64,000 nucleotides of DNA, taken from NCBI RefSeq assembly GCF_003634105.1, contig NZ_RBIQ01000007.1, positions 1,550,001 to 1,614,000 on the forward strand, written 5' to 3'. Below, piece after piece: positions 321 to 54,070 of the stretch. The stretch's first letter is position 1. Every line of letters begins with the position of its first letter. Both the position numbers and the translations under genes were made by a program. Source of the DNA: Maribacter vaceletii (GTDB lineage Bacteria > Bacteroidota > Bacteroidia > Flavobacteriales > Flavobacteriaceae). The notes beneath the pieces were generated by a model. It made no database searches, was not told where the DNA came from, and saw nothing but the letters and a program-made list of their open reading frames with translations.

Positions 321-2975
321 TTAGAATGTATACCCTAAGGTAAATAATACCCTTTTTGGGTTTTGGAATACTGCAGAAGATATTCTTCCTATACCATCTG
401 GATTAGCTTGCAACTCTCTTAAACTAGCATCTCCATCCTGTCCGCCAACTACAAGTTGTCTTGCATTAGCGCCATCGAAAAGGTTCTTAATACGCATGCT
501 AATTTTTAATTCATCTGTGCCTAATGGGAATGTATAATACGCACCAAGATTGTATTCAGACATTGTAGGAAGTTCAACAAGATTTAATACATCTGCATAA
601 GCTCCTGAGTATGTTACACCTCCAAAATCTGCACCCCATCTATCTGTACCATATCCAATATTTAAATTATAAATGGTAGAAGGTCTATTTTGCGCCTTTA
701 ATCCACCAATATCAAAGGCTTGTAAGCCATTTTCGGTAGTAACAAGATTAAGCCCATATATGTTATCAGGATCTGTGCTAGAACTTAATGGTACTAAGAA
801 TTTTTTATATTCAGAATTAGAAAGTGTTACCGCTCCCCTTAATAAAAGCCCTTTTATCGTTTTTGGTGTATATACTGCGGAAAGTTCTCCACCAAAGATT
901 TTATTAGAACCAGCAGGTTCTTCTACCCATTCACCAAGATCACCATTGAAAATAGTTGCGGTTCTATTGTCTATAGTAGTATTGAACATGGTTATATCTA
1001 AAGTTAAATCACCTAGACCTGCTCTATAACCTATTTCTAGATTATTAACAATTTCATTTTCATCTGGTAAAATAGTTGTCAAGTTAATAGAACCTGGTAA
1101 TGAAAACGCTCTAACATAATTGGCATAAATAGCAGAAGATTCTCCTAATAAATAATTAGCACCTATAGAATACGATAAATCATTAAATTTTAATTCGTTT
1201 TCTTCAAATGTAGCAGGATCGTAATCAACACCTGTTAGTCTTATTTCTTGTGGATCATTGTTGAATCTAGTTTTTAACCAATCGTAACGAAAAGAAACGT
1301 TAACACTTAATTTTTCGTTAAATACCATTTCATCTCCTATAAAAAAGGCTGTACTTGTTTCCTGTCTATTAGAAGAAGTATTAGAAACATAAGAAGTTGG
1401 TGGTAAGGAAGGGTCGCTAAAAGATCCATTAGAAAAACCAAAAGCACTTGCTACGTTTGGATTTCTAAAGGTTACGTTTGTTCCATATATGAAATTTAAA
1501 CCCAAACGATCTCTTTCTGCTGTGCTATAATACACACCTCCACTAATATTATGCTCAGCGTTAGCTCCTTTAATTTGCTTAGAAATTCTATGTTCAGTAA
1601 TCCAATCTCTATTTTGGTTATCTGCTGCACCATTAAATCTACTTACTGTTGTGTTTACGTCATAAAAAGTAGAGAAGTTAAATTCATTTATATCTAGATA
1701 TTTAAAATCATTATATCTAAACCTTTCATTCCAGAACCATCCGTTTCCTAAATCAATATTAAAATCTACTCCAACAGTCGTACCTATTGTTTTTTCTTTA
1801 TTTCGTCCTGGATTATCTCTAAGAGCAACACCATTAGCATCAGTAGCCGTAGAAGTATCAAAGAAAGCATTTCTTACCCCAATTTCACCAAAAACTGTAG
1901 TAAGGTTTCCTGCATCATTAAAAAATGTGTTAGCTGGGTGCCAGCCTTCTAATATTTTGCCGTTTTCTAAATCCCAAGGACCATCTGTTATGTTTTGAAA
2001 TTGGTTGTTAAAAGTACTTCCATATACACGAATGGAAGACGTTTCTGTAATAAGCCAATCAAAATTAGCTCTAATTTGGGCTCCTCTATCTTTAGCAAAC
2101 TGCTCCTTAACACCAGAATCTTCTAAAACATAACCACCTATATTATAACGAATCTTTTCAGTAAGAGGCCCATTAAAATTAAAATCTGCTCTAAAATCTA
2201 CTTCATCTTCAAATTGGTGACCTTCTCTAGAATTATTGCTATACTTTGTTAAAGAAAAAGACCCTTTATGTTCCGTTCCTCCAACTTTAGATATTATATT
2301 TATTGCACCAGCTGCTGCAGCTCTACCAAAAAGAGTTGCTGCAGCACCACGTACTACTTCAATAGTTTGAACACTTGGGTCAATACCAAAGAACTCTTGG
2401 GTCCCACCAGTTAATGCTTGGGTACCTGTAATAGGTAAACCATCAATTAAGGTAGTAGTATAACTTGATCCCCCCGGAAAACCGCGAATATTAAATCCAC
2501 CTTTTCTACCTTGGGTTTCATCAATGGTTATACCTGGTGTATTTTGAATTGCTTCAGAAAATGATTCAGGCTTTAAAATATTTAATTCCTGAGTACCAAT
2601 AGTATTAATTGCTGTTGTAGCTTGTAGTTTTCTTACTGGTTTCCTAGTAGAGGATACAACAACTTCATTTAAAAGACTTACATCTTCTTTAAGTTGAACA
2701 TTAGCTACTGATCCGCTTACCTCAACTTTCTTTCGGCCAAAACCAATATAGGAGAATATTAAAACATCTCCGTTTGCTGCTTGTATGCTATACATACCAT
2801 TGTCATCAGTTACTACACCATTAGAGGTGCCTTGTTGCTGTACTGTTGCTCCTAAGATTGGAACATTGTTGTCGTCTGTTACTTTTCCTGTTACTGTTCC
2901 TTGGGCAAAAGCTCCTGCCGAACACAGTAAAAAACTAAGGAAACAAATCAAATGTGAAATTTTGTACGTTTTCAT
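321..2975 (-). CDS. TonB-dependent outer-membrane receptor
   Basis: An 884-residue outer-membrane receptor for TonB-driven uptake. Residues 1-25 are a signal peptide ending AFAQ. Residues about 27-100 form a carboxypeptidase-regulatory-like (CarboxypepD_reg) domain typical of Bacteroidota receptors. A plug domain follows (about 110-230, with GGFNIRGFPGG and VVRGAAATLFGRAAAAGAINI), then a long beta-barrel ending in a terminal Phe (LGYTF). The plug and barrel resemble siderophore-type receptors more than SusC, and there is no SusD partner. Tandem TTAA-N5-TTAA operator units lie 118 bp upstream, so I infer it imports the substrate of the neighbouring island. The substrate cannot be read from sequence, and ferric-siderophore uptake remains an alternative. 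Confidence 0.93.
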   Translation of the reverse strand: MKTYKISHLICFLSFLLCSAGAFAQGTVTGKVTDDNNVPILGATVQQQGTSNGVVTDDNGMYSIQAANGDVLIFSYIGFGRKKVEVSGSVANVQLKEDVSLLNEVVVSSTRKPVRKLQATTAINTIGTQELNILKPESFSEAIQNTPGITIDETQGRKGGFNIRGFPGGSSYTTTLIDGLPITGTQALTGGTQEFFGIDPSVQTIEVVRGAAATLFGRAAAAGAINIISKVGGTEHKGSFSLTKYSNNSREGHQFEDEVDFRADFNFNGPLTEKIRYNIGGYVLEDSGVKEQFAKDRGAQIRANFDWLITETSSIRVYGSTFNNQFQNITDGPWDLENGKILEGWHPANTFFNDAGNLTTVFGEIGVRNAFFDTSTATDANGVALRDNPGRNKEKTIGTTVGVDFNIDLGNGWFWNERFRYNDFKYLDINEFNFSTFYDVNTTVSRFNGAADNQNRDWITEHRISKQIKGANAEHNISGGVYYSTAERDRLGLNFIYGTNVTFRNPNVASAFGFSNGSFSDPSLPPTSYVSNTSSNRQETSTAFFIGDEMVFNEKLSVNVSFRYDWLKTRFNNDPQEIRLTGVDYDPATFEENELKFNDLSYSIGANYLLGESSAIYANYVRAFSLPGSINLTTILPDENEIVNNLEIGYRAGLGDLTLDITMFNTTIDNRTATIFNGDLGEWVEEPAGSNKIFGGELSAVYTPKTIKGLLLRGAVTLSNSEYKKFLVPLSSSTDPDNIYGLNLVTTENGLQAFDIGGLKAQNRPSTIYNLNIGYGTDRWGADFGGVTYSGAYADVLNLVELPTMSEYNLGAYYTFPLGTDELKISMRIKNLFDGANARQLVVGGQDGDASLRELQANPDGIGRISSAVFQNPKRVLFTLGYTF

Positions 2976-3093
2976 AGGTGTTTAATTATTAGTTCAATTT
3001 AGTTAGTTTAACATAGTGTTTTTGGTAGTTCTCGCCTTTTCTATAGATGTGTTTTTAACAGATTGGGCTTTAAATTCTTCACCAATATAATAA

Positions 3094-3122
3094 TTAATAA
3101 TGTTAATTGTTAATTAAATTAA
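3094..3122. promoter_or_regulatory. Tandem TTAA-N5-TTAA operator, TonB side
   Basis: TTAATAATGTTAA (3094-3106) and TTAATTAAATTAA (3110-3122) are two 13-bp palindromic units with starts exactly 16 bp apart. The same architecture occurs before other transcription units of the island. It lies 118 bp upstream of the receptor start codon. Confidence 0.65.
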
Positions 3123-3326
3123 CTATTTTTTCAAAAAAAATTGAATTTTGTTATTTTTGAGTTAAATTTTTAGAAATATGTAATTTTTGTTGCGTTTATT
3201 TAAAAATTAATCAATGTACTGCAGATTGTGTTGCTAATAACATATAAAATTTAGGCATATATATATTAAGGTATAATTTTTTATTTTTAAATAGTTTATA
3301 CAGTATACTTTTAAAAGTAAATTTAA

Positions 3327-3434: not shown

Positions 3435-4301
3435 ATGAGACTTATTAGTAGTTTATTCCTTGCCTTTTTTATTTTTATGGGTTGTAAAGATGAAAAACAA
3501 TTAGAAACCCAGAAAGAGGAAAAAGAAGTATTACATCCTTCTCAAGATAAAAAATCTTACAAACATGCTCCAGAACCTCTTAAAACATGGGTAAATGCTA
3601 GAGCTGGAACAGGAAAACCAGTACACTGGATAGCAGAGGGTAGTGTATATGAATACCCGTCTGGAAAAAAACTTTTTGGTATGATTGGTTTTGATAGCTC
3701 CACCATAATTTGGCCAGAAGAAGAAAATGGTAAAATAACCCATTTAACCAGAAAAACTTTTGCGTATACAGATCCAGAGACAGGAGAGGTTATTACAGAG
3801 TACAATGGTAATAAAGTAGAGCCAATTGCATATCCTTACCAAATGATAACTTATAGATTAGAAAACAACAAAATTTTTGGTGATGTAGAACAAGGAGTAG
3901 GAGAAAGAGTACAACAAATTAAAGCTAAAGAAGGTATTCCTTATAGAAAAATGGGAAATACATTTGTGTACAATGCTTCTGTTTTTTTAGATTTTCCTTT
4001 GCCTTCAGGAACTCAATATCAAGCATGGGAAAATTACGATTTTTTTATACATCCAGAGGCTACTGTAGAGGAGCCACATCAAATGAGTTGGCAGCGTTAT
4101 GGCAAATTACCAAAATGGGCTGGTGATGGTCATGCTATTATTCAACTATATTCTTGGCGGGTAGAAAGCCATGAAGAATTTCCTTCAAATCTTTTAAATT
4201 GGGCAAAAGAAGTTAAACCTAAATGGCTTAATCCTCCAAAAGATGTAGCAGAGATAAGAGCGCTACAAAAAGGTAAAGCTGGTGCTGGTTGGGGAAGGTA
4301 A
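3435..4301 (+). CDS. DUF1838 family lipoprotein
   Basis: A 288-residue protein with a lipoprotein signal (hydrophobic run then FMGC, Cys at about 17), so probably anchored in the envelope. The mature part matches DUF1838 by its layout: a WIAEGSVYEYPSGK segment early, then TDPETGEV near residue 115, and aromatic-rich strands to the end. DUF1838 has no established function. Three more members lie in this island (31190, 33193, 47422), each near a VOC or CpcT-like gene. Here a VOC gene follows after 66 bp in the same direction. This copy lacks the NPxTG part of the family pattern, so it is a divergent member. Confidence 0.8.
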   Translation: MRLISSLFLAFFIFMGCKDEKQLETQKEEKEVLHPSQDKKSYKHAPEPLKTWVNARAGTGKPVHWIAEGSVYEYPSGKKLFGMIGFDSSTIIWPEEENGKITHLTRKTFAYTDPETGEVITEYNGNKVEPIAYPYQMITYRLENNKIFGDVEQGVGERVQQIKAKEGIPYRKMGNTFVYNASVFLDFPLPSGTQYQAWENYDFFIHPEATVEEPHQMSWQRYGKLPKWAGDGHAIIQLYSWRVESHEEFPSNLLNWAKEVKPKWLNPPKDVAEIRALQKGKAGAGWGR

Positions 4302-4367: not shown

Positions 4368-5396
4368 ATGATTAAGCAGCAAGAAATTAGAGGAGTTTAT
4401 GAATCATGTATAGGGGTTCCCGATCTTATAGCGGCAATTGCATTTTGGAACCAATTTGGTTACCGAATTGTAGATCAAGGCGAATTATCTGCAGAAAGCG
4501 CAAAAAAACTTTATAATGTTAACTCAAAAGTTAAGTCAGTTCAATTACAACATTTAGATAGTGATCATAGTTTTATACGATTAATGCAATGGGATAAACC
4601 AACAAATAAAGGTATAGGTTATACTGCTAATCTCCGTTATAACGGTGGTAGATGGGGTGTGTTATTAACAAAAAGTGTTCTTAATATTTTAAACCATGTA
4701 GAAGATGCTATTGCTAAAGGAGATTTATGGTCTTTTATTATGCCGCATTGGTTACAGGTGTATCAAATGGAAAAAGGAAAACCATTTTTTGATAGACCAC
4801 TTGGCGTTAGAGAAGGAATTGCTTTACACCCTTATTGCAGATTAGCAATTTTTGAAAGATATAATTATGAAAAACCGACTTATGGTAATATAGATGAAAA
4901 TTCTTTTTTAAAATCTAGTCAATTTACACATCATGGAATCTTATTGCGTACAGATGACATTAGTTCATTAAAATTCTATGATGAATGTCTTGGTTTGTTA
5001 AGACAAAAAGAACAAAATTTAGGAGGAAAACCTACTTGTTCATCTGGTAACCAACAGACTTTTGGTCTTAGCAGTTCTGAGGTTTATAGTATTCATGATT
5101 TTGATGACCCAAGATCTTCTTTAGATGTTAAAGGTCATTTGTCTGGGCGTTTAAAAATTGTTAGAATGTACACTTCTTCAGAAATGAAAGATGTTCATGA
5201 CCTTTCTCGACCGGGTTCCCTTGGAATGTCTCTTTTAACTTATCAAGTGAGAGATATTGAAATGTATAGAAAAAAGGTTATAGAAGGTGGAGCTACTAAT
5301 GTTACAGAAATCTATGAAAATGAATTTAAAGAACCCAGTATTTCATTTAATTCCCCTGATGGATTGACATGGAATTTAGTTGGGAATTTAATATAA
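4368..5396 (+). CDS. Two-domain VOC (glyoxalase/extradiol dioxygenase fold) protein
   Basis: A 342-residue cytosolic protein (no signal) built of two vicinal-oxygen-chelate modules. The first starts at about residue 8 (GVYESCIGVPDL) and the second at about 184 (FTHHGILLRTDDISSLKFYDECLGLL). It ends with the typical SPDGLTWNL strand. VOC proteins are metal-dependent lyases, isomerases or ring-cleaving dioxygenases. The reaction here cannot be assigned. It is related in layout to the two-domain VOC genes at 32225, 36245 and 44924 and probably shares a transcript with the DUF1838 gene upstream. Confidence 0.8.
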   Translation: MIKQQEIRGVYESCIGVPDLIAAIAFWNQFGYRIVDQGELSAESAKKLYNVNSKVKSVQLQHLDSDHSFIRLMQWDKPTNKGIGYTANLRYNGGRWGVLLTKSVLNILNHVEDAIAKGDLWSFIMPHWLQVYQMEKGKPFFDRPLGVREGIALHPYCRLAIFERYNYEKPTYGNIDENSFLKSSQFTHHGILLRTDDISSLKFYDECLGLLRQKEQNLGGKPTCSSGNQQTFGLSSSEVYSIHDFDDPRSSLDVKGHLSGRLKIVRMYTSSEMKDVHDLSRPGSLGMSLLTYQVRDIEMYRKKVIEGGATNVTEIYENEFKEPSISFNSPDGLTWNLVGNLI

Positions 5397-5743: not shown

Positions 5744-8413
5744 ATGAATGAAACAGTAAAAGCTAACGATTTAGAATGGGGTCAAGAGTTACAAGAATGG
5801 ATAGCATCTTTAGATGAAGTTATTCAAGATTTAGGAGATGAACAGGCTGCAAAACTTATACGCCGTTTACGAGCATTCGCAATTAAAAAAGGAGTAAAAC
5901 TGGCTGGGGAAGCTCTTAACTCTCCGTACATAAATACTATAAACGTAAAACACCAGCCTCCATACCCTGGAGATACGGTATTAGAAACTAAAATAGAAAA
6001 TATTAATCGCTGGAATGCTATGGCAATGGTATTACAGGGGTATGATAGTGGAGCAGGTGTAGGAGGGCATATTGCCACCTACGCATCGGCAGCTAGTATG
6101 TACGAGGTTGGTTTAAATCATTTTTTTAGAAAAAAATCGGAAGATTATGGAGGAGATTTAGTCTCTTTTCAGCCGCACGCCGCACCTGGAATATATGCAA
6201 GAGCATTACTAGAAGGACGTTTAACAGAAGATAATCTTAAAAATTTTAGAAGAGAACTACAAGCAGAAGGTGGTTTACCATCGTATCCGCATCCAAGAAG
6301 AATGCCATCTTTTTGGGAAATACCTGCAGCCTCAATGGGACTTATAGGGGTAAGCGCCATATACCAAGCTCGTTTTCAAAAATATTTAGAAAATAGAGGA
6401 TTAAAAGAGAAAAAAGGAGGTAAAATTTGGGCATTTGTTGGGGATGGAGAAATGGATGAACCAGAAACTCTTGGAACTTTAAATATTGCCGTAAGGGAGC
6501 AGCTAGATAATTTGGTGCTTGTAGTAAATTGTAATTTACAGCGCTTAGATGGCCCTGTTCGTGGTAATGGAAAAGTTATTCAAGAATTGGAAAGAAGCTT
6601 CTTAGGAGCAGGTTGGAATGTTACTAAGGTAATTTGGGGAAGCGAGTGGGATTCTTTAATAGAAAGAGATCATAAAGGTATTTTGGTAGATAGAATGAAT
6701 GAAGCCTTAGATGGCGATTACCAAATGTACTCTGTGTTGCCAGGAGATGAAGTTCGTAAGCATTGGATAAAAGATAACCCAGAGTTAGAACAATTAATGC
6801 AATCTTTATCTGATGAAGAAATAAGAACTATTAGACGTGGAGGGCATGATTATAAAAAAATATTTGCAGCATTTGATAAAGCAGCAAAACCAAATGGAAA
6901 GCCTAGTGTAATACTTATGAAAACCTTAAAGGGGTATGGCATGGGAGATTCTGGTGAAGGAAAAAATACGACGCACCAGAAAAAAAGCATGACGGCAGAT
7001 GAACGTATAGACGCAGCTGCAAGATTTGGTATTCCAATGAGTAAAGAAGATGCTGCAAAAGCTAAATTTTATATACCATCTCCAGATAGTCCAGAGATTA
7101 AATACCTTAAAGAAAAAAGAGAAGCTTTAGGAGGGTATTTACCAGAGCGTAAAGATGAAAGTATTACAATAAAAACTCCCGGAGACGATTTGTTTGGCGA
7201 GTTTTATGAAGGTACAGGAGATAGAGAGGTTTCTACCACTATGGTTTTGGTAAGGTTAATCACAAAACTAATTCGTCATGATGGTATTAAAGAATATATA
7301 GTTCCTATTATTCCGGATGAGGCAAGAACTTTTGGTTTAGATGGCCTTTTCCGTTATGCAGGAATTTATCAGCCTAAAGGGCAATTATACAAACCAGTAG
7401 ATGCTGGTAGTGTTTCGTATTATAGAGAAAGTGTAGATGGTCAAATACTACAAGAGGGTATTTGTGAAGCTGGTGCAATAGCTTCTTTTATGGCAGCAGG
7501 TTCTGCTTATGCGATGCATGGCTTGCCAATGATTCCTTTTTACGTTTTCTATTCCATTTTTGGTTTTCAGCGTGTGGGAGATATGATTTGGGCATGTGGA
7601 GATATGCTTTGTAAAGGTTTTTTAATTGGAGGAACTTCAGGAAGAACAACTCTTAATGGTGAAGGAGTACAACACCAAGATGGACATTCACATATGCTTT
7701 CTAGTGTAGTTCCAAATATGAAAAGTTACGATCCTTCTTTTGCTTATGAATTGGCGATTATAATTAAAGATGGTATTTATAGAATGTATGAGATGCAAGA
7801 AAAAATCTTTTACTATATCACGGTAACTAACGAGAATTACACTATGCCAGTTATGCCTAAAGGTGTAGAAGAAGGTGTAATTAAAGGAATGTATCGCTAT
7901 CAAAAATCAACAAAAAAATCTAAAAGAAAAGCACATTTAATGGGTAGTGGTTCTATAATGAGTCAGGTTTTAGAAGCAAAAGAGCTATTAGAGAGCATGG
8001 ATATTTCTACAGACATTTGGAGTGTTACAAGTTATACAGAGCTGCAACGAGAAGCTTTAAATGCAGAAAGAGAAGCGTTATTATCTACAGCAGAAAAGAA
8101 GCCTAAATCCTATATAGAGACAATATTAGAAAAGGAAACTGGTGTTTTTGTTTCCGTATCTGATTATATGAAATCTTGGGGTATGGGTATCTCTAAATGG
8201 ATGCCAGAGGCATACCATGTTTTAGGGACAGATGGTTATGGTTTAAGCGAATCTAGAACCGATTTAAGAGACTATTTTGAAATTAGTCCTAAGTACATTG
8301 CTTTAGCAGCACTTCAATTACTAAGAAAAGAAGGAGAGGTTACAGCAAAAGAAGTTAAAGATTTTATTAAAGCACAAAATATTGACAGTGCTAAAATTAA
8401 CCCTGCATTGTAA
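5744..8413 (+). CDS. aceE: AceE-type 2-oxoacid dehydrogenase E1 (homodimeric)
   Basis: An 889-residue thiamine-diphosphate enzyme of the homodimeric pyruvate dehydrogenase E1 family, the same length as E. coli AceE. It decarboxylates a 2-oxoacid and passes the acyl group to E2 lipoate. The ThDP motif GDGEMDEPE sits near residue 232, and the family segments HPRRMPSFWEIP and HQDGHSHMLSSVVPN are intact. The E2 gene follows after 20 bp. No E3 (dihydrolipoamide dehydrogenase) is nearby, so E3 would be shared with another complex. AceE relatives also act on 2-oxobutanoate in catabolic clusters (for example MdeB), so the substrate here may be pyruvate or 2-oxobutanoate. Family certain, substrate inferred. 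Confidence 0.93.
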   Translation: MNETVKANDLEWGQELQEWIASLDEVIQDLGDEQAAKLIRRLRAFAIKKGVKLAGEALNSPYINTINVKHQPPYPGDTVLETKIENINRWNAMAMVLQGYDSGAGVGGHIATYASAASMYEVGLNHFFRKKSEDYGGDLVSFQPHAAPGIYARALLEGRLTEDNLKNFRRELQAEGGLPSYPHPRRMPSFWEIPAASMGLIGVSAIYQARFQKYLENRGLKEKKGGKIWAFVGDGEMDEPETLGTLNIAVREQLDNLVLVVNCNLQRLDGPVRGNGKVIQELERSFLGAGWNVTKVIWGSEWDSLIERDHKGILVDRMNEALDGDYQMYSVLPGDEVRKHWIKDNPELEQLMQSLSDEEIRTIRRGGHDYKKIFAAFDKAAKPNGKPSVILMKTLKGYGMGDSGEGKNTTHQKKSMTADERIDAAARFGIPMSKEDAAKAKFYIPSPDSPEIKYLKEKREALGGYLPERKDESITIKTPGDDLFGEFYEGTGDREVSTTMVLVRLITKLIRHDGIKEYIVPIIPDEARTFGLDGLFRYAGIYQPKGQLYKPVDAGSVSYYRESVDGQILQEGICEAGAIASFMAAGSAYAMHGLPMIPFYVFYSIFGFQRVGDMIWACGDMLCKGFLIGGTSGRTTLNGEGVQHQDGHSHMLSSVVPNMKSYDPSFAYELAIIIKDGIYRMYEMQEKIFYYITVTNENYTMPVMPKGVEEGVIKGMYRYQKSTKKSKRKAHLMGSGSIMSQVLEAKELLESMDISTDIWSVTSYTELQREALNAEREALLSTAEKKPKSYIETILEKETGVFVSVSDYMKSWGMGISKWMPEAYHVLGTDGYGLSESRTDLRDYFEISPKYIALAALQLLRKEGEVTAKEVKDFIKAQNIDSAKINPAL

Positions 8414-8433: not shown

Positions 8434-9708
8434 ATGATTGAATTTAAATTACCATCCTTAGGAGAAGGCATAGAAAAAGGAACTATAATTTCTATTTTAG
8501 TAAAAGAAGGGGATACCATAGAGGCAGAGCAATCTTTAATAGAGGTTGAAACAGATAAAGTAGTTGTAGAAGTACCCGCAGAACAAGGGGGTGTAATAAC
8601 TTCTGTTTTAGTTGCTATAGGTGATGAAATAGGAGAAGGAACACCTTTTTTAAAGTTGGCAGGAGGCGATACTTCCGAAACTAAAGAAGAAAAGAAAGTA
8701 GATAAAGAGGAAGAAACCAAAGCAAAAGAGGAGCCAGCAATACAAGAGCCAGCTGTTTCGGTTGCAGCACCAGTTGTTGCATTACCTAAAATAGAGGTGG
8801 AGACGCAGCTTAAAAAAGGTTTTAGAGCATCTCCCTTAGCAAGAAAAATGGCAAAAGAAATTGGCATTAATTTGGCTGATGTTCCATTAACCAGAGAAAC
8901 AAAAAGGATTTCATTACAAGATGTAAAAGATTTTGCTAAGCAATTAAATGAAGGTAGAACAAAAGGAGTAGGAACTATGAACACCCCAGATTTACCAGAC
9001 TTTAGTAAATGGGGTAGTATTTCTAAAAAACCTCTCTCAGGAATATCGCAAGCTACAAGTAAAAACATGAGTGGATCTTGGTCTGTTATTCCACATGCTT
9101 GGTTACAAGAAAAAGTAGATATTACTAATTTAGAAGCTAAACGTCAACAGCATAAAATTGCTATAAAAGAAAAAGGAGGAGCATTAACAATTACTAGTAT
9201 TTTGGTAAAGGTGGTTGCCAAAGCATTAGAAAGTTATCCTATTTTTAATTGTAGTTATGATGCCAATGCTAATGAAATAATCTATAAAGAGTATATAAAT
9301 GTTGGCGTAGCCGTAGACACAGATAGAGGACTTTTGGTGCCAGGGTTAAAAAGCCCAAATACTAAAAGTATTAGCCAAATAGCTATGGAATTAACAGAGG
9401 TTTCTACCAAGGTAAAACAAAAGAAAGTTTCTAAAGAAGATTTAGAAGGTATTACGTTTACTATTTCTAATCTTGGAGGCATTGGAACTACTGCTATTTT
9501 TCCTTTAGTAGCTTTTCCGCAAGTTGCAATTTTAGGAGTTGCCGCTAGTGCAACGGAACCGGTATGGGTAGATGGAGAGTTTAAACCAAGACTACTAATG
9601 CCAATTACTATTGGTTTTGACCATAGAATAATTAATGGAGCAGACGCTGCACGTTTTATAAAGCATATTAAAGAGCTTTTAGAAGATTGGTTTTTATTGA
9701 GTTTATAG
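8434..9708 (+). CDS. Dihydrolipoyl acyltransferase E2 of the 2-oxoacid dehydrogenase complex
   Basis: A 424-residue E2 core enzyme. An N-terminal lipoyl domain (about 1-77) carries the lipoyl lysine K42 in ETDKVV. An acidic/Ala-Pro linker is followed by a peripheral-subunit-binding domain (about 130-165, RASPLARKMAKEIGINLADV) and the acyltransferase domain. The active-site stretch reads DHRIINGADAARF, so the usual HxxxDG is HxxxNG: the His is kept, the Asp is replaced by Asn. There is one lipoyl domain rather than the two or three common in AceE partners. It directly follows the AceE-type E1 and presumably forms its complex. Confidence 0.92.
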   Translation: MIEFKLPSLGEGIEKGTIISILVKEGDTIEAEQSLIEVETDKVVVEVPAEQGGVITSVLVAIGDEIGEGTPFLKLAGGDTSETKEEKKVDKEEETKAKEEPAIQEPAVSVAAPVVALPKIEVETQLKKGFRASPLARKMAKEIGINLADVPLTRETKRISLQDVKDFAKQLNEGRTKGVGTMNTPDLPDFSKWGSISKKPLSGISQATSKNMSGSWSVIPHAWLQEKVDITNLEAKRQQHKIAIKEKGGALTITSILVKVVAKALESYPIFNCSYDANANEIIYKEYINVGVAVDTDRGLLVPGLKSPNTKSISQIAMELTEVSTKVKQKKVSKEDLEGITFTISNLGGIGTTAIFPLVAFPQVAILGVAASATEPVWVDGEFKPRLLMPITIGFDHRIINGADAARFIKHIKELLEDWFLLSL

Positions 9709-40329: not shown

Positions 40330-40340
40330 TTTTTGTGCCT

Positions 40341-47425: not shown

Positions 47426-48327
47426 TTTTCATCCCATTTAAGTTCTTCTGTAAAAATACCAGGTTGCTTTTCTTCCGTAGCAGCGATAAAATCTTTTGGT
47501 AAATCTTCTTTGTTAAAAAAAGTAGACCCACTAGATGTCCATATCATATGTCCAGGTGTTCCTTGCATTTTTAAAATAGAAAGCCAAGAGGTTTCACTTG
47601 TCCAATGAAATTCAGATGGAATGTGGGTATAGGACCTATCTGTTAAATATTTTCTATCAACATCATAAGTATCTAGTGTCATTTCTGTTCTCCAAGTTTG
47701 CGATTTTTTTTCGAACCACTTGGTAAAAGCATGTCTGGTAATATGAATTTTATCACCCATTTCTGTAAAAACCAAATTAAGAGGAGCATTAAAAGCGGTA
47801 CTTTCCATATTAAAGTTAGCATCTACTACAGGCCCAAGTGGCGTCATTTCTCCTCCGCGAATTCCTGCTCTAAAAGGAGGGACTTCTACTTCTTTCCCTG
47901 TATATGGATTAACCATATTACTTAAAAAAGCATTTGTTTTTGGGTCTCTATAAAGTAACCAACCTTTAGATTTGGTTTCTATATTTCCATTTTCTAGTAA
48001 ACGCATTATTTTTATGCCACAACCAGAATATCTAAATACTTCTTTTCCGAAAACATTTAGGCTATCGGGCTTATCTGGTCTAATGCCAAAAACACGTCCT
48101 TCTGAATAAGAATAGGTTATTTTTCCTGATATGTCTCCCTGTATTTTTTCAAAAATTAATAATTGATCCTTAGGGTCGTTAAGGTCATAATCAATCTTCT
48201 TAATATCTATATTATTTTCCTTAATTTCTTTTTTTGCGGATTCTTTAGGGGAGCAATTAAAGACTAGTAAAAGAGTGAATAGTCCGTATACTATTTTAGA
48301 AATATGCTTTATTTTATAGAAATTCAT
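47422..48327 (-). CDS. DUF1838 family lipoprotein
   Basis: A 301-residue lipoprotein (LLLVFNCSP lipobox, Cys about 25). DUF1838 landmarks: ITYSYSEGRVFGIRPDKPDSL near residue 74, LLYRDPKTNAFLSNMVNPYTG near residue 124, and WTSETSWLSILKMQGTPGHMIW near residue 257. It overlaps the downstream amine-oxidase-type gene by four bases, which suggests the two act together at the membrane. Confidence 0.87.
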   Translation of the reverse strand: MNFYKIKHISKIVYGLFTLLLVFNCSPKESAKKEIKENNIDIKKIDYDLNDPKDQLLIFEKIQGDISGKITYSYSEGRVFGIRPDKPDSLNVFGKEVFRYSGCGIKIMRLLENGNIETKSKGWLLYRDPKTNAFLSNMVNPYTGKEVEVPPFRAGIRGGEMTPLGPVVDANFNMESTAFNAPLNLVFTEMGDKIHITRHAFTKWFEKKSQTWRTEMTLDTYDVDRKYLTDRSYTHIPSEFHWTSETSWLSILKMQGTPGHMIWTSSGSTFFNKEDLPKDFIAATEEKQPGIFTEELKWDEK

Positions 48328-48376: not shown

Positions 48377-49384
48377 TTATTTTTCACATTCGCATACTGC
48401 AGAGACCCATCCCAACTGAAATCCTATTTTTTTAGCCTTTGGTTCTGCAAAAGCTAAAGCTACGGAAGCTTTTTGGCCTTCTTCTTTAAGACGTAAAAAG
48501 AAAAAATTAGAATCTTCTAGTTTGTAAAAAGGATACTCTTTATCTCGTAATTGAATAAAGTAAGTTTTGCCATTAATAGGGTTTAACATGGTAGCCATAC
48601 CTCCTTGATTATGTACTTTTAGGTTTTTAAAACTTTTATCTTTTTCACTTGGTGCATAGTATGCAGTTTCAAAAAAAGAAACATCGCAAGTGTAGTATTT
48701 TACCTTTTTCATTTTATGAGGTTCTGCATTAGGATGCCCTTTATGAAATGAATCGTCTTTAACCAAAAAAGTACGGTCTACACGCCAGTATTGTTTTTCT
48801 GATAGTATAATATCATGGACAGAATATCTTTTTTCTTTTCCTTTCCCAAATTGGCAGGCTTTGCTCTCCATGCTTCCGTGGTACTGATCTCCTTTTCTTT
48901 GGAATATTACATCGCAACCATCTAAGCCAAATAGAATTTCGGGGGTAATATTTGCAATCATATTTTCATGAGTATCACTTCCTATGCTATATTTTTCGGC
49001 ATCTTTTAGAAAGTAAATTTTCATGGTAATCCCTGGTTTGTTTTTTAAGCTTTCAAAAGAAACAAGCCTTTGTCTGCTAATTTTTGTTGGGTCATTATCA
49101 AGATATTCTTCCACGTAAAAAACAAATTTCCCTACGCTATCTGCTTTCACTCTTTTATGAACGGCATGCATTTGTTGGTGTTTTTCATTTGCTTTTCCCC
49201 ACCAATCTCCACGCGCTTCTACCCACATTTGATCGTCATTATCAAATTCGCCTTCAAACCAATTTGCCATAACTTCTAGGTCGCGGGTATTTGGGTCTCC
49301 TAAATCAAAAGTTATATTTGGCGAAGCTATTGTTAGTTGTATACTAAAGATTGTAAATAAAATTAAAGAAGTATAGAGTTTCAT
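48377..49384 (-). CDS. Exported CpcT/CpeT-family protein with extra C-terminal domain
   Basis: About 335 residues with signal MKLYTSLILFTIFSIQLTIAS. I start at ATG 49384 rather than the in-frame ATG at 49402, which lies inside the upstream gene. Residues about 30-210 are CpcT/CpeT-like (VMANWFEGEFDNDDQMW, then FYVEEYLDNDPTKISRQRLV, then DGCDVIFQRKGDQYHGSM). The last ~120 residues (from YYTCDVSFFETAYY, through VHNQGG, to IGFQLGWVSAVCECEK) match the added domain of the protein at 30140. It follows the FAD enzyme at 49395. Confidence 0.8.
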   Translation of the reverse strand: MKLYTSLILFTIFSIQLTIASPNITFDLGDPNTRDLEVMANWFEGEFDNDDQMWVEARGDWWGKANEKHQQMHAVHKRVKADSVGKFVFYVEEYLDNDPTKISRQRLVSFESLKNKPGITMKIYFLKDAEKYSIGSDTHENMIANITPEILFGLDGCDVIFQRKGDQYHGSMESKACQFGKGKEKRYSVHDIILSEKQYWRVDRTFLVKDDSFHKGHPNAEPHKMKKVKYYTCDVSFFETAYYAPSEKDKSFKNLKVHNQGGMATMLNPINGKTYFIQLRDKEYPFYKLEDSNFFFLRLKEEGQKASVALAFAEPKAKKIGFQLGWVSAVCECEK

Positions 49385-49394
49385 AAAGTTATTA

Positions 49395-50897
49395 TTAAGC
49401 ATTAAGAATAATGTCTAGAGCGGCTCTTTCTCCAGACTCAAAAGCACCTTCCATTCCTCTTTCCATAATAGAAGTATGTTCTCCGCAGAAATGAATATTA
49501 CCATGGTTATTTCGCATGTGGTTTGCGAATTTTTTTACCTGGCCAGGTTGCCAGTATACCCAGTCCCCAGCTCCATGAACATCTCTCTCGCAGGATTGAA
49601 TTATTAATCGTTCTAGAGCTCCTTTTGTAGAGGGTCTCATTTCGGCCAATTTCATTTCTACATAATTAAAGACTTGATCATCCGTCATTAATCTAAATTT
49701 GTTAGATTCGGGCCCGTTTATATAAGCTATTGCAGCATCTGGGTCAGTTTTGTTTCTTTTGGTACGTACTGCAAATCGTTCTAAAGGACCATCAGTCCAC
49801 ATATTAGCCTCCATACCATCTTTTTCCCAGAAAGGCTCTTTAACTAAGAAATGAGCTTGGACAGAAAGTCCATAATCCATTTGATCAATAGCTTCTTTAG
49901 TAACTCCAGAGATATGAGGTTCAAAAGTTACATTACGCAAAACGGAGATAGGAATACTACAGATTATGTGCTTTCCTCTATACTCACTACCATCGGCGCA
50001 ACTCACTTGTACAATGCCATTTTCTTCTTTAAAACCTACTACAGTTTTACCTAAATGAGGTTCATTTTTTAAGCTACCTGCCATGGCTTCTGGTAACAAA
50101 GAGTTTCCTCCTTTTACCATTTTCCAATTTGTACCATCTGGAAAACTAATTTTACCACTACTAAAATGCATTACGTGATAACGGCGCAGTTCATTTATTG
50201 CCGAGGTTCTGTGCATTCCTCCTGAATGTATAACAACATTCATTAAGCGAATAGTTTCTTCATTTACGCCTTTAGATCTGAGGTATTGATCATGAGGAAT
50301 ATCGTATTTATGAAATTCTGGTTCTAACCAAGCATCTAAAGGTTTTCCAGATAAAGGATTGTCTCTATGCGATATAGTAGAAAGAAAGCGGTGCGGTAAT
50401 AAGGTTCTATCCTCTCCTTCTAAAGGGTTTAACTTATGAGATTCCCAGTTTTTAGCATCTATATAATTTCCTTTAATATTATATAACCATGGTCTATTAT
50501 TTCCTCCTCCTTCCGGATTATACATTTCTAAACCAAGTTTATTAACGGTACTGATCATACGAGCATAGTTTGCCCCAATGTATTCCCCGGCAGCTTCTGG
50601 TTTTCCAGGAACATCTAACAGCGTGTAAACTCTACCACCTAATCTTTGTCTACCTTCAATTACTTGTACATCGTAACCAGATTCTTCTAGAAGCATTGCA
50701 GCATGTAAACCAGAAAGTCCGGCGCCAACAACAATAACATCATGAGAGGCTTTAATAGGTTTGTTTTTTATATGAATTGCAGGAGCTTCAGAAGAAGCCG
50801 ATTCTTTTTTGGAGTTGGTAGTACAACTTGCCGGTAATATTAAACCTGCTGATGCACCAGCAATTCCTTGAATAAACTTTCTTCTATTCGTTTTCAT
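49395..50897 (-). CDS. Exported FAD-dependent amine-oxidase-family enzyme
   Basis: A 500-residue flavoprotein with a twin-arginine signal (MKTNRRKFIQGIAGASAG) and a lipobox (LPASC). FAD motif VIVVGAGLSGLHAAMLLEES near residue 54 and C-terminal HFCGEHTSIMERGMEGAFES. The gene begins 15 bp after a lipoprotein cytochrome c gene. This suggests it passes electrons to the cytochrome and so works as a dehydrogenase and not as a peroxide-forming oxidase. That is inferred. Confidence 0.88.
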   Translation of the reverse strand: MKTNRRKFIQGIAGASAGLILPASCTTNSKKESASSEAPAIHIKNKPIKASHDVIVVGAGLSGLHAAMLLEESGYDVQVIEGRQRLGGRVYTLLDVPGKPEAAGEYIGANYARMISTVNKLGLEMYNPEGGGNNRPWLYNIKGNYIDAKNWESHKLNPLEGEDRTLLPHRFLSTISHRDNPLSGKPLDAWLEPEFHKYDIPHDQYLRSKGVNEETIRLMNVVIHSGGMHRTSAINELRRYHVMHFSSGKISFPDGTNWKMVKGGNSLLPEAMAGSLKNEPHLGKTVVGFKEENGIVQVSCADGSEYRGKHIICSIPISVLRNVTFEPHISGVTKEAIDQMDYGLSVQAHFLVKEPFWEKDGMEANMWTDGPLERFAVRTKRNKTDPDAAIAYINGPESNKFRLMTDDQVFNYVEMKLAEMRPSTKGALERLIIQSCERDVHGAGDWVYWQPGQVKKFANHMRNNHGNIHFCGEHTSIMERGMEGAFESGERAALDIILNA

Positions 50898-50912: not shown

Positions 50913-51422
50913 TTATTCTTCTATTTTTGTTTCTTCTTTGAGGTATTCAATTAAAGCAGTTTGCTGCTCTTCTTTTTTAATACCAACAAAAGCCATTTTA
51001 GTTTGGGGAACATAACCTGCAGGGTCTTGCATCCATTTACGAATGGTCTCTTCGCTCCATGTTATTCCAGAAGCCTTGAGTGCTTCAGAGTATTCAAAAC
51101 CTTCTGTAGTCGCAGATTTTTTGCCAAAAATGCCATATAAATTAGGTCCAACTTTATGCGCTTCCCCTTTTTTTAAATTGTGGCAGGCAGCACAGGCAAT
51201 AAACATTCTTTTTCCTAGAACGTTTGTATTTTGCGTTTTATCGGAATTAGTTTCGGCTATAGGAGTGGTCTTTGATTCAGTTTTTATATTAAAGGTTGGT
51301 TCTTCTTTTTTTTCTTTTTGTCCACAGGAAGAAATTAGTAAAAATGTAAGTAAAAATAGTGGATAGAAAATTTTACTTGTCTTTAAATTTAATTTCTTAT
51401 TTTTTGTTTTAAGTGTAATCAT
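50913..51422 (-). CDS. Class I c-type cytochrome lipoprotein
   Basis: A 169-residue lipoprotein (LLISSC, Cys 33) with one haem-binding CAACH at 77-81 and a probable axial Met in PQTKMAFVGI. The fold is like cytochrome c2/c550 (GPNLYGIFGKKSATTEGFEYS). It is the first gene of the long minus-strand unit and most likely takes electrons from the FAD enzymes encoded next to it and delivers them to the respiratory chain. Confidence 0.92.
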   Translation of the reverse strand: MITLKTKNKKLNLKTSKIFYPLFLLTFLLISSCGQKEKKEEPTFNIKTESKTTPIAETNSDKTQNTNVLGKRMFIACAACHNLKKGEAHKVGPNLYGIFGKKSATTEGFEYSEALKASGITWSEETIRKWMQDPAGYVPQTKMAFVGIKKEEQQTALIEYLKEETKIEE

Positions 51423-51534: not shown

Positions 51535-52950
51535 TTACTTGTATATTTTCCCTTGTTTAATTACGGTGTTAATTTTTTTAGTATTTTCTATGTTTTTTAA
51601 AGGGTTGGCATTAAGAATAAGTAAATCTGCCCACATGGTTTCTTTAATTTGGCCTAGTTCTTTTTCTAAGTTAAAATATTTTGCAGGATTTGTTGTTGCT
51701 GTTTTTAATACTTCTAATATTGGTATGCCAGTTTCTGCTAATGCAGCTAGTTCTTCATGTAAACTTAACCCGGGAGTTAAGTAAGCTATAGGTGTGTCTG
51801 TGCCTGCCATAATTGGAATCCCTTTATCATATATTTTTTTTACCATTTTTATATGCCATTCATCATACTCTTTTCTAAAATCTGAGGCTTTTATTTGTGT
51901 TAAAGCTTTGGATCTATTTTGCCAATAATTTGCAATAGAGTCTGGTAAGGCAGAATAGCTACTCTGCCATTCTTTCTTTTCAAAATATCTTCTACTAAAA
52001 AAAGTATTTAACGCTAATGTTGGTATTTGCCAAGTATCATTTTCTTTTAAGATAGTTAAAATAGAATCGGCTTTAGTATCATCATAATTAGCAATAGCTT
52101 TTTTCTGTTGGGCATTATGAATGTTTAGCCGTAATTCTCCACCATGGCTATGTATTGTATTTTTTAATAGAGCTCTTCTTTCTCTTAATAGCTCTTGAGA
52201 GTTAGAGGCGCAAGATAAATCTAGATTGCGTATATGCTCCATACTATGTAAGCCTGCATTAGATGCGCTAATAACATCCATGCTTAATGGAACATGACCA
52301 GTTACTTTAAGACCTTTTTGGTTTGCTATCTTTATAATATGCTTAAACTGTTCTGGGGTTAGCATCTCATAAGCCTTTAAAAAATCTACCCCCATTTTTT
52401 CTAAGTATTGTATCTGGTTAGTAATTTGTTCTTTAGAATTTAGAGCTACAGAAAGTTCAGGGTGTCTTGCATCACTACCATCATATACATTTGAGATACC
52501 ATCTAATAAAGGGCCCGCCATAAATATTCTTGGAGCTAAAGTTGGATTAGCAATAGAATGATCTTTACATTTTTTTACTATATTAATTTTGCCACCAGTG
52601 TCTCTAACGCTAGTAACACCATATTTTAAAAATAAAGAAGACATTATTGGGGTTAATTCTTTGATATAGTCGTAATGCACATGAGTATCCCAAAGACCAG
52701 GGATTAAGTATTTATTTGTGCCATCAATAATTGTGTTTTTTTTAGAAAGAACAATGTTTTTTTTGTGTTCTATTTTAAAAATTTTACCATCTTTTAAAAC
52801 TACAGTTTGCTTTTCTTTTAAACCCTCTAGAGGGTCTATTGTATTAATGTTTTCTATGCAGATAGCGTTCTCGAAAAATTCCTCTTTAGAACTGCATGAG
52901 AAAAGGATTAGTAGTAAAAATAGAAATGTATATATACTATTTAAAAACAT
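51535..52950 (-). CDS. Amidohydrolase-family lipoprotein (imidazolonepropionase-like)
   Basis: A 471-residue metal-dependent amidohydrolase with a lipobox (LILFSCSS, Cys about 19). Metal-ligand segments are visible: DTHVHYDY near residue 88, LKAYE with the bridging Lys, GLKVTGHVP, HSMEHI and AGTDTPI. The family hydrolyses cyclic amides, esters or imides and includes imidazolonepropionase and prolidase-type members. It is a monocistronic minus-strand gene sharing the operator 52989-53017 with the divergent MDR gene. Envelope location suggests action before uptake into the cytosol. Confidence 0.88.
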   Translation of the reverse strand: MFLNSIYTFLFLLLILFSCSSKEEFFENAICIENINTIDPLEGLKEKQTVVLKDGKIFKIEHKKNIVLSKKNTIIDGTNKYLIPGLWDTHVHYDYIKELTPIMSSLFLKYGVTSVRDTGGKINIVKKCKDHSIANPTLAPRIFMAGPLLDGISNVYDGSDARHPELSVALNSKEQITNQIQYLEKMGVDFLKAYEMLTPEQFKHIIKIANQKGLKVTGHVPLSMDVISASNAGLHSMEHIRNLDLSCASNSQELLRERRALLKNTIHSHGGELRLNIHNAQQKKAIANYDDTKADSILTILKENDTWQIPTLALNTFFSRRYFEKKEWQSSYSALPDSIANYWQNRSKALTQIKASDFRKEYDEWHIKMVKKIYDKGIPIMAGTDTPIAYLTPGLSLHEELAALAETGIPILEVLKTATTNPAKYFNLEKELGQIKETMWADLLILNANPLKNIENTKKINTVIKQGKIYK

Positions 52951-52988
52951 ATTAGAGTAGTTAAATTTGTTTAGGTAATAAAAAATGG

Positions 52989-53017
52989 TTAATTTAATTA
53001 ATTGTTAATATAGTTAA
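52989..53017. promoter_or_regulatory. Tandem TTAA-N5-TTAA operator in a divergent promoter region
   Basis: TTAATTTAATTAA (52989-53001, perfect palindrome) and TTAATATAGTTAA (53005-53017) have starts 16 bp apart. It is 38 bp from the amidohydrolase start and 36 bp from the MDR start. It is the rightmost member of the operator set in this window. Confidence 0.72.
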
Positions 53018-53053
53018 TTAAATGTTTAATTCAAAAAATATACCATTTTAGTT

Positions 53054-54070
53054 ATGCAAAATAATAGACTAGTTCTAGCTTCTCGTCCTACAGATTTTAT
53101 TTCTTCTAATAATTTTAAATTAGAAAAAGTAGAGTTGCCAAAACTTAAATTTGGCGAGTTTTTAATTAAAGTACTTTACTTGTCTGTAGCTCCTGTGATG
53201 AAATTTTATATGTTAGATGGCGCAGGTATAGAAAGTCCTTTACAAATAGGAGATGTAATGCGAGGTAGAGGTGTTGGCGAAGTAGTGGAAAGTAAAAATG
53301 CAGATTTTAGTGTTGGAGATATTGTACAAGGAAAATGTGGTTGGCAAGAATATGTTATTTGTGATGGAAGTCCGTACCATATGATGTATAAAGTAGAACA
53401 GCGAATTTTACCTTATTCTACAGCACTAGGTGTTTTGGGAATGACAGGTTTTACTTCTTATTTTGGTTTGTATAAAGTTGGGGCTTTACAAAAAGGAGAA
53501 AACGTTTTGGTTTCAGCAGCAGCTGGTGGTGTAGGTTCCTCTGTAGGTAGTTTGGCAAAAATAAAAGGAGCTAAGGCAGTTGGTTTTGCAAGTACAGATG
53601 AAAAATGCAGATTGTTAGTAGAGAAATTGGGCTATATAGGGGCTATTAATTATAATAGTGAAAATATTGGGGCTCAAATTGATACTTTTTTTCCTGATGG
53701 CATAGATGTTTATTTTGATAACGTAGGTGGGCCTTTGTTAGATATTGCTTTAACAAAGTTAAAGCGATACGCTAGAGTGGTTTGTTGTGGAAGAATTTCT
53801 CAATATTTAGAGGGTAAAGACGCCTCTGTTTATCCTTTAAAAAATTGGCATAGAATAGGAGCTACGAGGTCTAAAATGGAAGGATTTTTTATATATGATT
53901 TTGAAAATGAATTTCCAATAGCAGAAAAAGAAATGTCGCAATGGATTAAAGACGGAAAGTTAGATTACCAAGAAGATATTTTAGAAGGATTGGAAAATAT
54001 GCCAATTGCTCTTAATCGTTTGTTCCAAAAAAAGAATGTTGGGAAACAACTAGTAAGGATTAGTGAATAG
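53054..54070 (+). CDS. MDR-family NADP-dependent oxidoreductase (enone reductase type)
   Basis: A 338-residue medium-chain reductase of the zinc-free leukotriene/prostaglandin reductase (CurA-like) group. NADPH motif VSAAAGGVGSSVGSLAKIKGAKAVGFAST near residue 155, then GIDVYFDNVGGPLLD near residue 217. It reduces alpha,beta-unsaturated carbonyl compounds with NADPH. Last gene of the island on the right: its 3' end overlaps the convergent glycosyltransferase gene by 11 bp. Confidence 0.9.
   Translation: MQNNRLVLASRPTDFISSNNFKLEKVELPKLKFGEFLIKVLYLSVAPVMKFYMLDGAGIESPLQIGDVMRGRGVGEVVESKNADFSVGDIVQGKCGWQEYVICDGSPYHMMYKVEQRILPYSTALGVLGMTGFTSYFGLYKVGALQKGENVLVSAAAGGVGSSVGSLAKIKGAKAVGFASTDEKCRLLVEKLGYIGAINYNSENIGAQIDTFFPDGIDVYFDNVGGPLLDIALTKLKRYARVVCCGRISQYLEGKDASVYPLKNWHRIGATRSKMEGFFIYDFENEFPIAEKEMSQWIKDGKLDYQEDILEGLENMPIALNRLFQKKNVGKQLVRISE

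Follow-up and report, generated by a model that had tools for sequence, protein, structure and literature searches.

The stretch of DNA considered here, hereafter the window, comprises 64,000 nucleotides of the genome of Maribacter vaceletii (positions 1550001-1614000 of contig C1 in the host genome G000, which totals 3.9 Mb in 15 contigs). Between positions 321 and 54070 it carries an island in which 51 genes were counted. Judging from gene content, the window most likely contains the bulk of a single catabolic system numbering about 70 genes, made up of these 51 and of 18 further genes in a second cluster directly to the left. It is tentatively proposed, as a close judgement, that the system degrades a pyrrole-type pigment fragment, most probably coming from chlorophyll, a bilin or another tetrapyrrole; the likelihood that a tetrapyrrole is the substrate is put at somewhat under one half.

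DUF1838 is the best marker of the system. The island contains four DUF1838 proteins, which the original prediction had not named, and these, together with four CpeT/CpcT-family proteins, account for all the DUF1838 and CpeT matches of the host genome. In an even draw of 299 Flavobacteriaceae genomes, DUF1838 was present in three and CpeT in 22. The other two DUF1838 carriers (G026 and G215), each of a different genus from G000, have islands with best matches to 44 and 43 of the 51 genes, respectively, at 55-92% identity and with the order largely kept. Since all host DUF1838 and CpeT matches sit in the island and so many of its genes are matched in G026 and G215, its inventory is not a product of chance. 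Absent from both of these islands are two-domain VOC a, CpeTa, one MFS transporter, the HisC, RidA and rhodanese proteins, and one single-domain VOC; DUF1838 protein b is additionally absent from G215.

For the wider searches, DUF1838 protein c (33193..34092) was used as the marker. In one draw of 395 Bacteroidota genomes, used for DUF1838 and CpeT alike, DUF1838 exceeded its cut-off in six, all with CpeT, as compared with 22 CpeT carriers among the 389 others (Fisher 7e-8, a value that overstates independence because the six carriers represent three genera). G523 has an unlinked CpeT and a DUF1838 match that stays short of the cut-off; it was not counted as a carrier. A DUF1838 profile based on eight proteins gave 406 confirmed stretches in named genomes, and the 80 of these that were analysed came from Bacteroidota (32), Pseudomonadota (46), Fidelibacterota (one) and an unplaced genome (one). 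At least eight core families lie near DUF1838 in 28 of the 32 Bacteroidota loci. By BLAST, a match to CpeT a, b, c or e falls within 10 kb of DUF1838 in 20 of the 32; 11 have only a protein of the 37247 type (unconfirmed) or the C-terminal domain described below, and one has neither. The best-matching named record is isolate 4-528 (L036), whose DUF1838 protein is 90% identical to the window copy.

The limits 321 and 54070 had been set by the original prediction. The right one was upheld; on the left side the system continues out of the window, and an island ending at the window's left edge was rejected, since the cluster runs on leftward and adjoins the island in G026 and G215. The 20 kb fetched from this side (L005) start with methylmalonyl-CoA mutase genes (a label read from the translations), followed by the 18-gene cluster, which reaches about 17 kb leftward of the window. 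Its families were assigned by scan where scanned, and the regulator, carrier, SDR and reductase labels were read by eye.

Genes 1-6: MarR-type regulator, nitrilase-superfamily amidase, two-domain VOC, curcumin-reductase-like protein, alpha/beta hydrolase, CpeT-C-terminal-like protein of 249 amino acids
Genes 7-12: two SDR proteins, BASS-type carrier, two PuuE-family polysaccharide-deacetylase-fold proteins, isochorismatase-family protein
Genes 13-18: DUF4440 protein, CaiB-type CoA-transferase, CMD-like protein, second LeuD, second LeuC, HMG-CoA-lyase-type protein

The cluster lies about 4 kb or less from the island in G026 (17 of 18 genes) and G215 (16 of 18). In G330 and G311, Bacteroidota of another family than Flavobacteriaceae, window and left-cluster genes are mingled in one block of about 27-29 kb, and part of the mingled arrangement is found on a 24 kb contig of G422.

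For a maleimide endpoint, this left-cluster chain is stronger support than any of the window's own genes. The imide-hydrolase pair lies at L005:11146-12066 and 12053-13003, and the amidase at 13006-13668. One of the two PuuE-family proteins matches PuuE (3cl6, E 1.4e-21) and 3qbu (E 6e-11), and both imide-hydrolase-family proteins score under the TIGR03212 allantoinase equivalog cut-off, which shows the family but no particular substrate. The isochorismatase-family amidase matches N-carbamoylsarcosine amidohydrolase and 3ot4/3uao. The second LeuC (LeuC/homoaconitase subfamily NF001614, 550 bits, cut-off 385), the second LeuD (TIGR02087, 204 bits, cut-off 109) and the HMG-CoA-lyase-type protein (NF004283, 294 bits, subfamily cut-off 246) all exceed their thresholds. 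The first PuuE-family gene occurs in three of the 299 Flavobacteriaceae (E up to 1e-30), the same three that carry DUF1838, and in 11 of 14 chosen DUF1838 carriers at 57-100% identity. The endpoint foreseen in the original prediction, a chain from a substituted maleimide or maleate through a hydroxy acid to a 2-oxoacid, is supported: the left-cluster imide hydrolase, amidase, second LeuCD, CoA-transferase and lyase families provide what it had been missing.

Related combinations are found outside Bacteroidota. In Phenylobacterium sp. Root700 and an unplaced Kiruna bin (L101), LeuC, LeuD, a lyase of the PEP-mutase/isocitrate-lyase family and the imide-hydrolase pair are contiguous; the Phenylobacterium lyase scores 168.7 bits against PF13714, and that of L101 scores 296 bits against methylisocitrate lyase TIGR02317 (under the cut-off of 354), with 2,3-dimethylmalate lyase 3fa3 among its solved relatives. 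The Root700 locus is a large proteobacterial version that also carries a cytochrome c, a flavoprotein, a CoA-transferase, a TonB receptor, HapK, SDR, a methyltransferase and an aldehyde dehydrogenase. The PEP-mutase/isocitrate-lyase family is that of methylisocitrate and dimethylmalate lyases, so these two loci, where the LeuCD-type hydratase adjoins such a gene, resemble the DmdAB and dimethylmalate lyase steps of nicotinate fermentation; the lyase of the window differs in being of the HpaI family, and that of the left cluster in being of the HMG-CoA-lyase family. Cyclic imide catabolism (the imidase of P. putida and fungal HxnM/HxnN) is similar in that the left-cluster PuuE/imide-hydrolase pair adjoins an isochorismatase-family amidase. 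According to the parts of the source available, HxnM carries out the opening of a cyclic imide and shares 64% identity with a P. putida cyclic imide hydrolase homologue; it is also related to HpPgdA (3qbu), among whose characterised relatives PuuE is the closest. The present system differs from the fungal route in continuing into LeuCD hydratases and C-C lyases (PMC9304392).

The genes of the island are listed below. The Pfam scan covered all 51, selected proteins were also scored against NCBIfam models, and leader peptides (Tat-like, lipoprotein-like, exported-type) were called by a heuristic scan. The families on which the original prediction was built (CpcT, lipocalin-like, HapK-like, FAD enzymes, cytochrome c, VOC, HyuAB, LeuCD, HpaI and AceE/E2) were all recovered by Pfam where it had placed them. 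Its exported FAD enzymes with a cytochrome c were borne out by three Amino_oxidase proteins with Tat-like leaders and a cytochrome c with a lipoprotein-like one. Its many CpcT proteins come to four over the Pfam cut-off (21 bits), the fifth candidate (37247..37816) having a weak profile match only; its VOC enzymes were confirmed, with the one at 4368 under the cut-off and the one at 36245 barely over.

321..2975, -: TonB-dependent receptor, likely for substrate uptake (PF00593/PF07715); N-terminal part resembles a SusC homologue and ferric enterobactin receptors
3435..4301, +: DUF1838 protein a, lipoprotein-like leader (PF08894, 36.7 bits, cut-off 25)
4368..5396, +: two-domain VOC-like protein a (PF00903 under cut-off; 30% to the left-cluster VOC)
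5744..8413, +: AceE, homodimeric 2-oxoacid dehydrogenase E1 (TIGR00759, 1231 bits, cut-off 860)
8434..9708, +: 2-oxoacid dehydrogenase E2 (PF00198, PF00364)
9728..10390, +: conserved membrane-type protein without Pfam match, kept in G026 and G215
10398..11120, +: DUF3108-like protein (under cut-off), kept in the Phenylobacterium and Kiruna loci
11141..11788, -: flavodoxin-fold NAD(P)H oxidoreductase (PF02525)
11808..12815, -: zinc-type dehydrogenase/quinone reductase a (PF00107)
12823..13578, -: LolA-like protein (our own label), lipoprotein-like leader; weak PepSY match under cut-off
13590..14300, -: CpeT/CpcT-family protein a (CpeTa), exported-type leader (PF06206, 94 bits; PDB 4o4o CpcT, E 5e-6)
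14306..15562, -: MFS transporter 1 (PF07690)
15571..16830, -: MFS transporter 2 (PF07690)
17141..17659, +: DUF3598 protein (DUF3598_N; PF12204, 28.3 bits, cut-off 22), which we take to be of lipocalin type
17699..18967, +: LeuC-type hydratase large subunit (PF00330; NF001614, 515 bits, cut-off 385)
18979..20322, +: amine-oxidase-type flavoprotein a, Tat-like leader (PF01593)
20334..20858, +: LeuD-type hydratase small subunit, divergent (PF00694; TIGR02087, 89 bits, under cut-off 109)
20863..21624, +: HpaI-family aldolase/lyase (PF03328; TIGR02311, 157 bits, under cut-off 369)
21694..22005, +: HapK-like protein (PF11639, 32 bits, cut-off 25)
22009..22842, +: SDR dehydrogenase (PF13561)
22941..25013, +: HyuA, lactam/imide hydrolase subunit A family (PF01968; best NCBIfam match caprolactamase alpha, 557 bits, cut-off 1000)
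25016..26443, +: fumarate-reductase-type flavoprotein (PF00890)
26527..28143, +: HyuB (PF02538, 482 bits; caprolactamase beta, 205 bits, cut-off 1000)
28149..29336, +: SAM methyltransferase (PF13649)
29349..29702, +: small conserved protein without Pfam match, kept next to the methyltransferase in other loci
29702..30121, +: SnoaL-like protein (PF13474)
30140..31186, +: two-domain CpeT/CpcT protein b (CpeTb), exported-type leader (PF06206, 52 bits)
31190..32122, -: DUF1838 protein b, Tat-like leader (PF08894, 85 bits)
32225..33181, +: two-domain VOC b (PF00903)
33193..34092, +: DUF1838 protein c, exported-type leader (PF08894, 220.7 bits)
34110..34574, +: peroxiredoxin (PF00578)
34590..35528, +: SUMF1/FGE-domain protein (PF03781)
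35547..36224, +: CpeT/CpcT protein c (CpeTc), exported-type leader (PF06206, 65 bits)
36245..37246, +: two-domain VOC c (PF00903, 25.8 bits, cut-off 20.6)
37247..37816, +: possible cytoplasmic CpeT relative d (CpeTd) without Pfam match; weak profile match through a G-x-x-D-N-x-x-Q motif
37819..39045, +: MFS transporter 3 (PF07690)
39097..40329, +: MFS transporter 4 (PF07690, 150 bits)
40332..41399, +: HisC-like aminotransferase (PF00155)
41432..41977, -: RidA/YjgF protein, exported-type leader (PF14588)
41987..42850, -: two-domain rhodanese (PF00581)
42858..43292, -: single-domain VOC a (PF00903)
43303..43740, -: single-domain VOC b (PF00903)
43765..44904, -: nitrilase-superfamily amidohydrolase, exported-type leader (PF00795)
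44924..45910, -: two-domain VOC d (PF00903)
45926..47425, -: amine-oxidase-type flavoprotein b, Tat/lipoprotein-like leader (PF01593, 168 bits)
47422..48327, -: DUF1838 protein d, exported-type leader (PF08894, 49.5 bits)
48377..49402, -: two-domain CpeT/CpcT protein e (CpeTe), exported-type leader (PF06206, 78.6 bits)
49395..50897, -: amine-oxidase-type flavoprotein c, Tat-like leader (PF01593); nearest solved structures are monoamine oxidases
50913..51422, -: cytochrome c, lipoprotein-like leader (PF00034)
51535..52950, -: amidohydrolase, exported-type leader (PF01979)
53054..54070, +: NADPH-dependent reductase at the right end of the conserved block (PF16884; 78% and 75% identical in the G026/G215 relatives), presumably curcumin-reductase-like

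The CpeT proteins of the island resemble the T-type lyases CpcT/CpeT (PF06206; PDB 4o4o, 4o4s), since four exceed the family cut-off and one matches 4o4o by sequence; the island copies keep Cys at positions 116 and 137, and some also keep positions 65, 66, 68 and 163. Of Tyr65, Arg66, Arg68, Cys116, Cys137 and Asp163, which we take to form the ligand pocket of CpcT, CpeTa and CpeTc have all six, CpeTe has five, CpeTb three and CpeTd none. In contrast to CpcT/CpeT, the island copies are multiple and have exported-type leaders, two of them carry an extra C-terminal domain and lack Tyr65, and their genes adjoin catabolic genes and not phycobiliprotein genes. The C-terminal domain of the two-domain proteins b and e seems to occur also as the stand-alone protein of 249 amino acids in the left cluster (L005:7983-8732), which has no Pfam match, and it may represent an unnamed domain family. 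In a sequence search of solved structures, DUF1838 gave chance-level matches only, and none of the solved proteins matched two-domain VOC b at E 0.001. By profile comparison, DUF1838 showed no relation to CpeT, nor did DUF3598 to the 37247 protein. In four Maribacter islands (L051, at 9992-10894, L045, L048 and L052), DUF1838 protein c is about 64-69% identical to the window copy, and the HyuA-HyuB-methyltransferase stretch is more than 80% and up to 99% identical, as if the DUF1838 gene had been exchanged separately from the rest of the island.

Among NCBIfam models, window HyuA and HyuB are nearest to caprolactamase (CapAB) within the caprolactamase/hydantoinase group. Their scores lie well under the cut-offs; therefore, a substrate other than caprolactam is expected. 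The window HpaI protein is a member only of the wider PF03328 family and not an HpaI equivalog. Full-length AceE over the cut-off was found in six of 279 genomes of the Flavobacteriaceae sample, including all three island carriers, and its being the usual pyruvate dehydrogenase of the family was rejected on account of this rarity. Genes for propionyl-CoA metabolism (labels by eye) lie beside the island, namely a mutase in G000 and a mutase with propionyl-CoA-carboxylase-type genes in G026. In G215, the genes next to the island include counterparts of G026's small mutase gene and of its three carboxylase genes, at 59-90% identity, and loci L038 and L050 likewise have propionyl-CoA-type genes.

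The likeliest scheme for the system is the following. The TonB receptor would import a fragment of a pyrrole-type pigment, most likely of tetrapyrrole origin, the exported CpeT-fold and DUF1838 proteins may bind and process this fragment in the periplasm, and the Tat-exported amine-oxidase flavoproteins would hand electrons to the cytochrome c. MFS carriers could then import small lactam or imide fragments. This first half, uptake and periplasmic oxidation, is deduced from families and leader peptides only. Ring opening may be carried out by HyuAB, by the left-cluster pair of the PuuE/cyclic-imide-hydrolase family, or by both, and the isochorismatase-family enzyme would remove the amide nitrogen. 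The two LeuCD hydratases would act on two differently substituted maleates; one hydrated product may be cleaved directly by HpaI, and the other may be activated by the CaiB-type CoA-transferase and cleaved by the HMG-CoA-lyase-type protein. AceE/E2 would convert the 2-oxoacid to an acyl-CoA, and the adjoining propionyl-CoA genes would handle propionyl-CoA.

Oxidation of tetrapyrroles classically gives disubstituted maleimides. These would fall into two classes for a tetrapyrrole, one from propionate-bearing and one from vinyl- or ethyl-bearing pyrrole rings, which would explain the two hydratase/lyase branches. It is conceivable, and held a little more tentatively than a general role in pyrrole-type pigment breakdown, that the genes form a complete bacterial pathway mineralising tetrapyrrole pigments, such as products of chlorophyll or bilin breakdown. 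In it, the uncharacterised DUF1838 family and relatives of the cyanobacterial proteins that attach bilins would help to dismantle them, two end branches would serve two classes of substituted maleic acid, and fuller or reduced forms would occur across Flavobacteriaceae, Saprospiraceae, Alpha- and Gammaproteobacteria.

Several observations weigh against a tetrapyrrole or against so uniform a pathway. HyuAB, HpaI, the window LeuD and both imide-hydrolase-like proteins score under the curated NCBIfam cut-offs. Singleton CpeT genes occur in other Bacteroidota, in five loci without pathway genes nearby, and the pocket residues do not discriminate, as four of these five control proteins have all six; at a sixth locus (G611), the CpeT is of more than the usual length and its surroundings yield nothing beyond a generic match to aldehyde dehydrogenase. 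Therefore, CpeT alone was rejected as a sign of bilins. The three Flavobacteriaceae copies were inherited as a block, so the co-occurrence of their genes does not represent many independent events. Of the PuuE-family pair, G422 has only the second type, and no match to either was obtained at E 1e-20 in G570 or G626. In Pseudomonadota, a match to CpeT a, b, c or e lies within 10 kb of DUF1838 in seven of 46 loci, one locus has a C-terminal-domain match only and 38 have neither. Three of eight proteobacterial CpeT candidates reach the Pfam cut-off (L097 and L102 clearly, L078 barely, with 21.4 versus 21 bits), and the other five have no Pfam match. Many proteobacterial DUF1838 genes lack neighbours from the pathway: at least three core families stand near DUF1838 in only nine of the 46 loci, and none has eight. 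The Pseudomonadota figures are lower bounds because long antisense open reading frames hid genes; the DUF1838 gene itself was unpicked in eight of the 46 loci.

Haem oxygenase (PF01126) was not found in the host genome, which extends to the whole genome the absence already remarked in the original prediction, nor in G026, G215, G311 and G679; it is present in four of nine carriers (G330, G422, G570 and G626), always on a contig other than that of the island. Its absence from the host also counts against a tetrapyrrole substrate; it fits the use of external pigment and gives no positive support. Isolate 4-528, tied to the Maribacter algarum type strain by strain number only, came from the red alga Gelidium and, in the portions of the source available, recruits more reads in the green alga Ulva than in other algae (PMC12313589). 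Hence chlorophyll products fit at least as well as phycobilins, and a phycobilin as the sole candidate was rejected. The linear tetrapyrrole that had been predicted as the start of the pathway stays putative: CpeT is not diagnostic, it reaches the Pfam level in only two of six picked non-Bacteroidota DUF1838 genomes (five proteobacterial, one unplaced), and the 4-528 reads favour green algae.

Less probable, and worth serious weight, is that these genes break down some other compound with a nitrogen ring, from which a cyclic imide or lactam would arise, such as an algal alkaloid, a pyridine derivative or a prodigiosin-like tripyrrole. In that case the imide-to-dicarboxylate half of the scheme would stay and the tetrapyrrole half would fall. 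The imide, lactam and amide hydrolase, amidase and nitrilase families indicate a nitrogen ring in general, the pairing of LeuCD with a lyase resembles the dimethylmaleate steps of nicotinate fermentation, HapK is named after the prodigiosin cluster, and CpeT is dispensable in several carriers. Imide plus amide hydrolysis is known in fungal nicotinate breakdown, as described in the available part of PMC9304392. However, a small heterocycle would hardly account for four CpeT proteins together with a DUF3598 protein in the same island, and the two LeuCD pairs, each with its own kind of lyase, point to a pair of differently substituted maleates.

A hydrophobic substrate without nitrogen (a terpenoid, carotenoid derivative, aromatic or polyketide) is unlikely. 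CpeT, DUF1838 and VOC proteins would then handle the core, and the amidohydrolase-family enzymes would act on esters, lactones or other bonds or in side reactions. CpeT-fold proteins bind hydrophobic ligands generally, the amine-oxidase-type flavoproteins have weak NCBIfam matches to carotene desaturases, the NCBIfam relatives of HyuAB include acetophenone carboxylase, and HMG-CoA lyase and CaiB also take part in terpenoid and branched-acid routes; however, PuuE-family, isochorismatase-type amidase and nitrilase-superfamily proteins recur alongside DUF1838 in other phyla. That the island makes or modifies a compound instead of degrading one is very improbable: no synthase or assembly-line gene is among its Pfam matches, and the TonB receptor, carriers, hydratases, lyases, 2-oxoacid dehydrogenase and adjoining propionyl-CoA genes fit catabolism, even though methyltransferase, aminotransferase, SnoaL-like and HapK-like proteins occur in biosynthetic clusters too.

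On the right, the genes from 54060 onward lie outside the system, as the first three, which were compared, have no match in the G026 and G215 islands. The stretch 54060-57546 encodes a glycosyltransferase, a DUF547-like protein, a purine nucleoside phosphorylase, a DUF2064-like protein and a rhodanese (labels read from the translations), and seems to be a separate cluster. The HisC, RidA and rhodanese genes (40332-42850) are found in some other Flavobacteriaceae loci and may be a later, separate addition. A spaced palindrome considered as a candidate regulator site was rejected, its frequency being no higher than chance. At the singleton CpeT loci (L133-L137), an arginyl-tRNA-synthetase-like gene (label read from the translations) is near in three of five. 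DUF1838 relatives were also found in 11 plasmid records, of which three were inspected. On the Novosphingobium P6W plasmid, an alpha/beta hydrolase adjoins DUF1838 and no other pathway gene is among the annotated features; on a Calothrix plasmid, no pathway gene was found beside the DUF1838 relative; the third record, from Novosphingobium THN1, carries no annotation. L070, a metagenome bin labelled Klebsiella pneumoniae, has a DUF1838 protein 57% identical to that of the window, and the label is probably that of a mis-assigned bin.

Few nitrogen-bearing pigments are as abundant as chlorophyll and bilins. Known plant and gut bacterial routes of tetrapyrrole breakdown (the pheophorbide oxygenase route, bilirubin reductase), which are not known to go beyond tetrapyrroles, would share the substrate class with a pathway of the kind proposed. 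Their enzymes are not among the family matches of the island, apart from a 54-residue match of one flavoprotein to bilirubin reductase, far under the cut-off. In the open-access literature, as far as its texts were available, no description of the system was found, which is weak evidence of absence; the only mention of DUF1838 found there was in a paper on aurantimycin, and no gene-defined bacterial route from chlorophyll or bilin rings to central metabolism was found.

The carriers are scattered among marine and freshwater bacteria, and a described type strain held in the culture collections MCCC and KCTC appears, as matched by strain number, to carry the island. Even with another nitrogen-ring substrate, the roughly 70 genes make up a system that is inherited together, and parts of it occur in several phyla. 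If the substrate is indeed a tetrapyrrole, the system would name the genes of a bacterial route that carries pigment rings to central metabolism, would give DUF1838, DUF3598, the exported CpeT proteins and the C-terminal CpeT domain a testable function, and would provide markers for following pigment turnover in seas and lakes.

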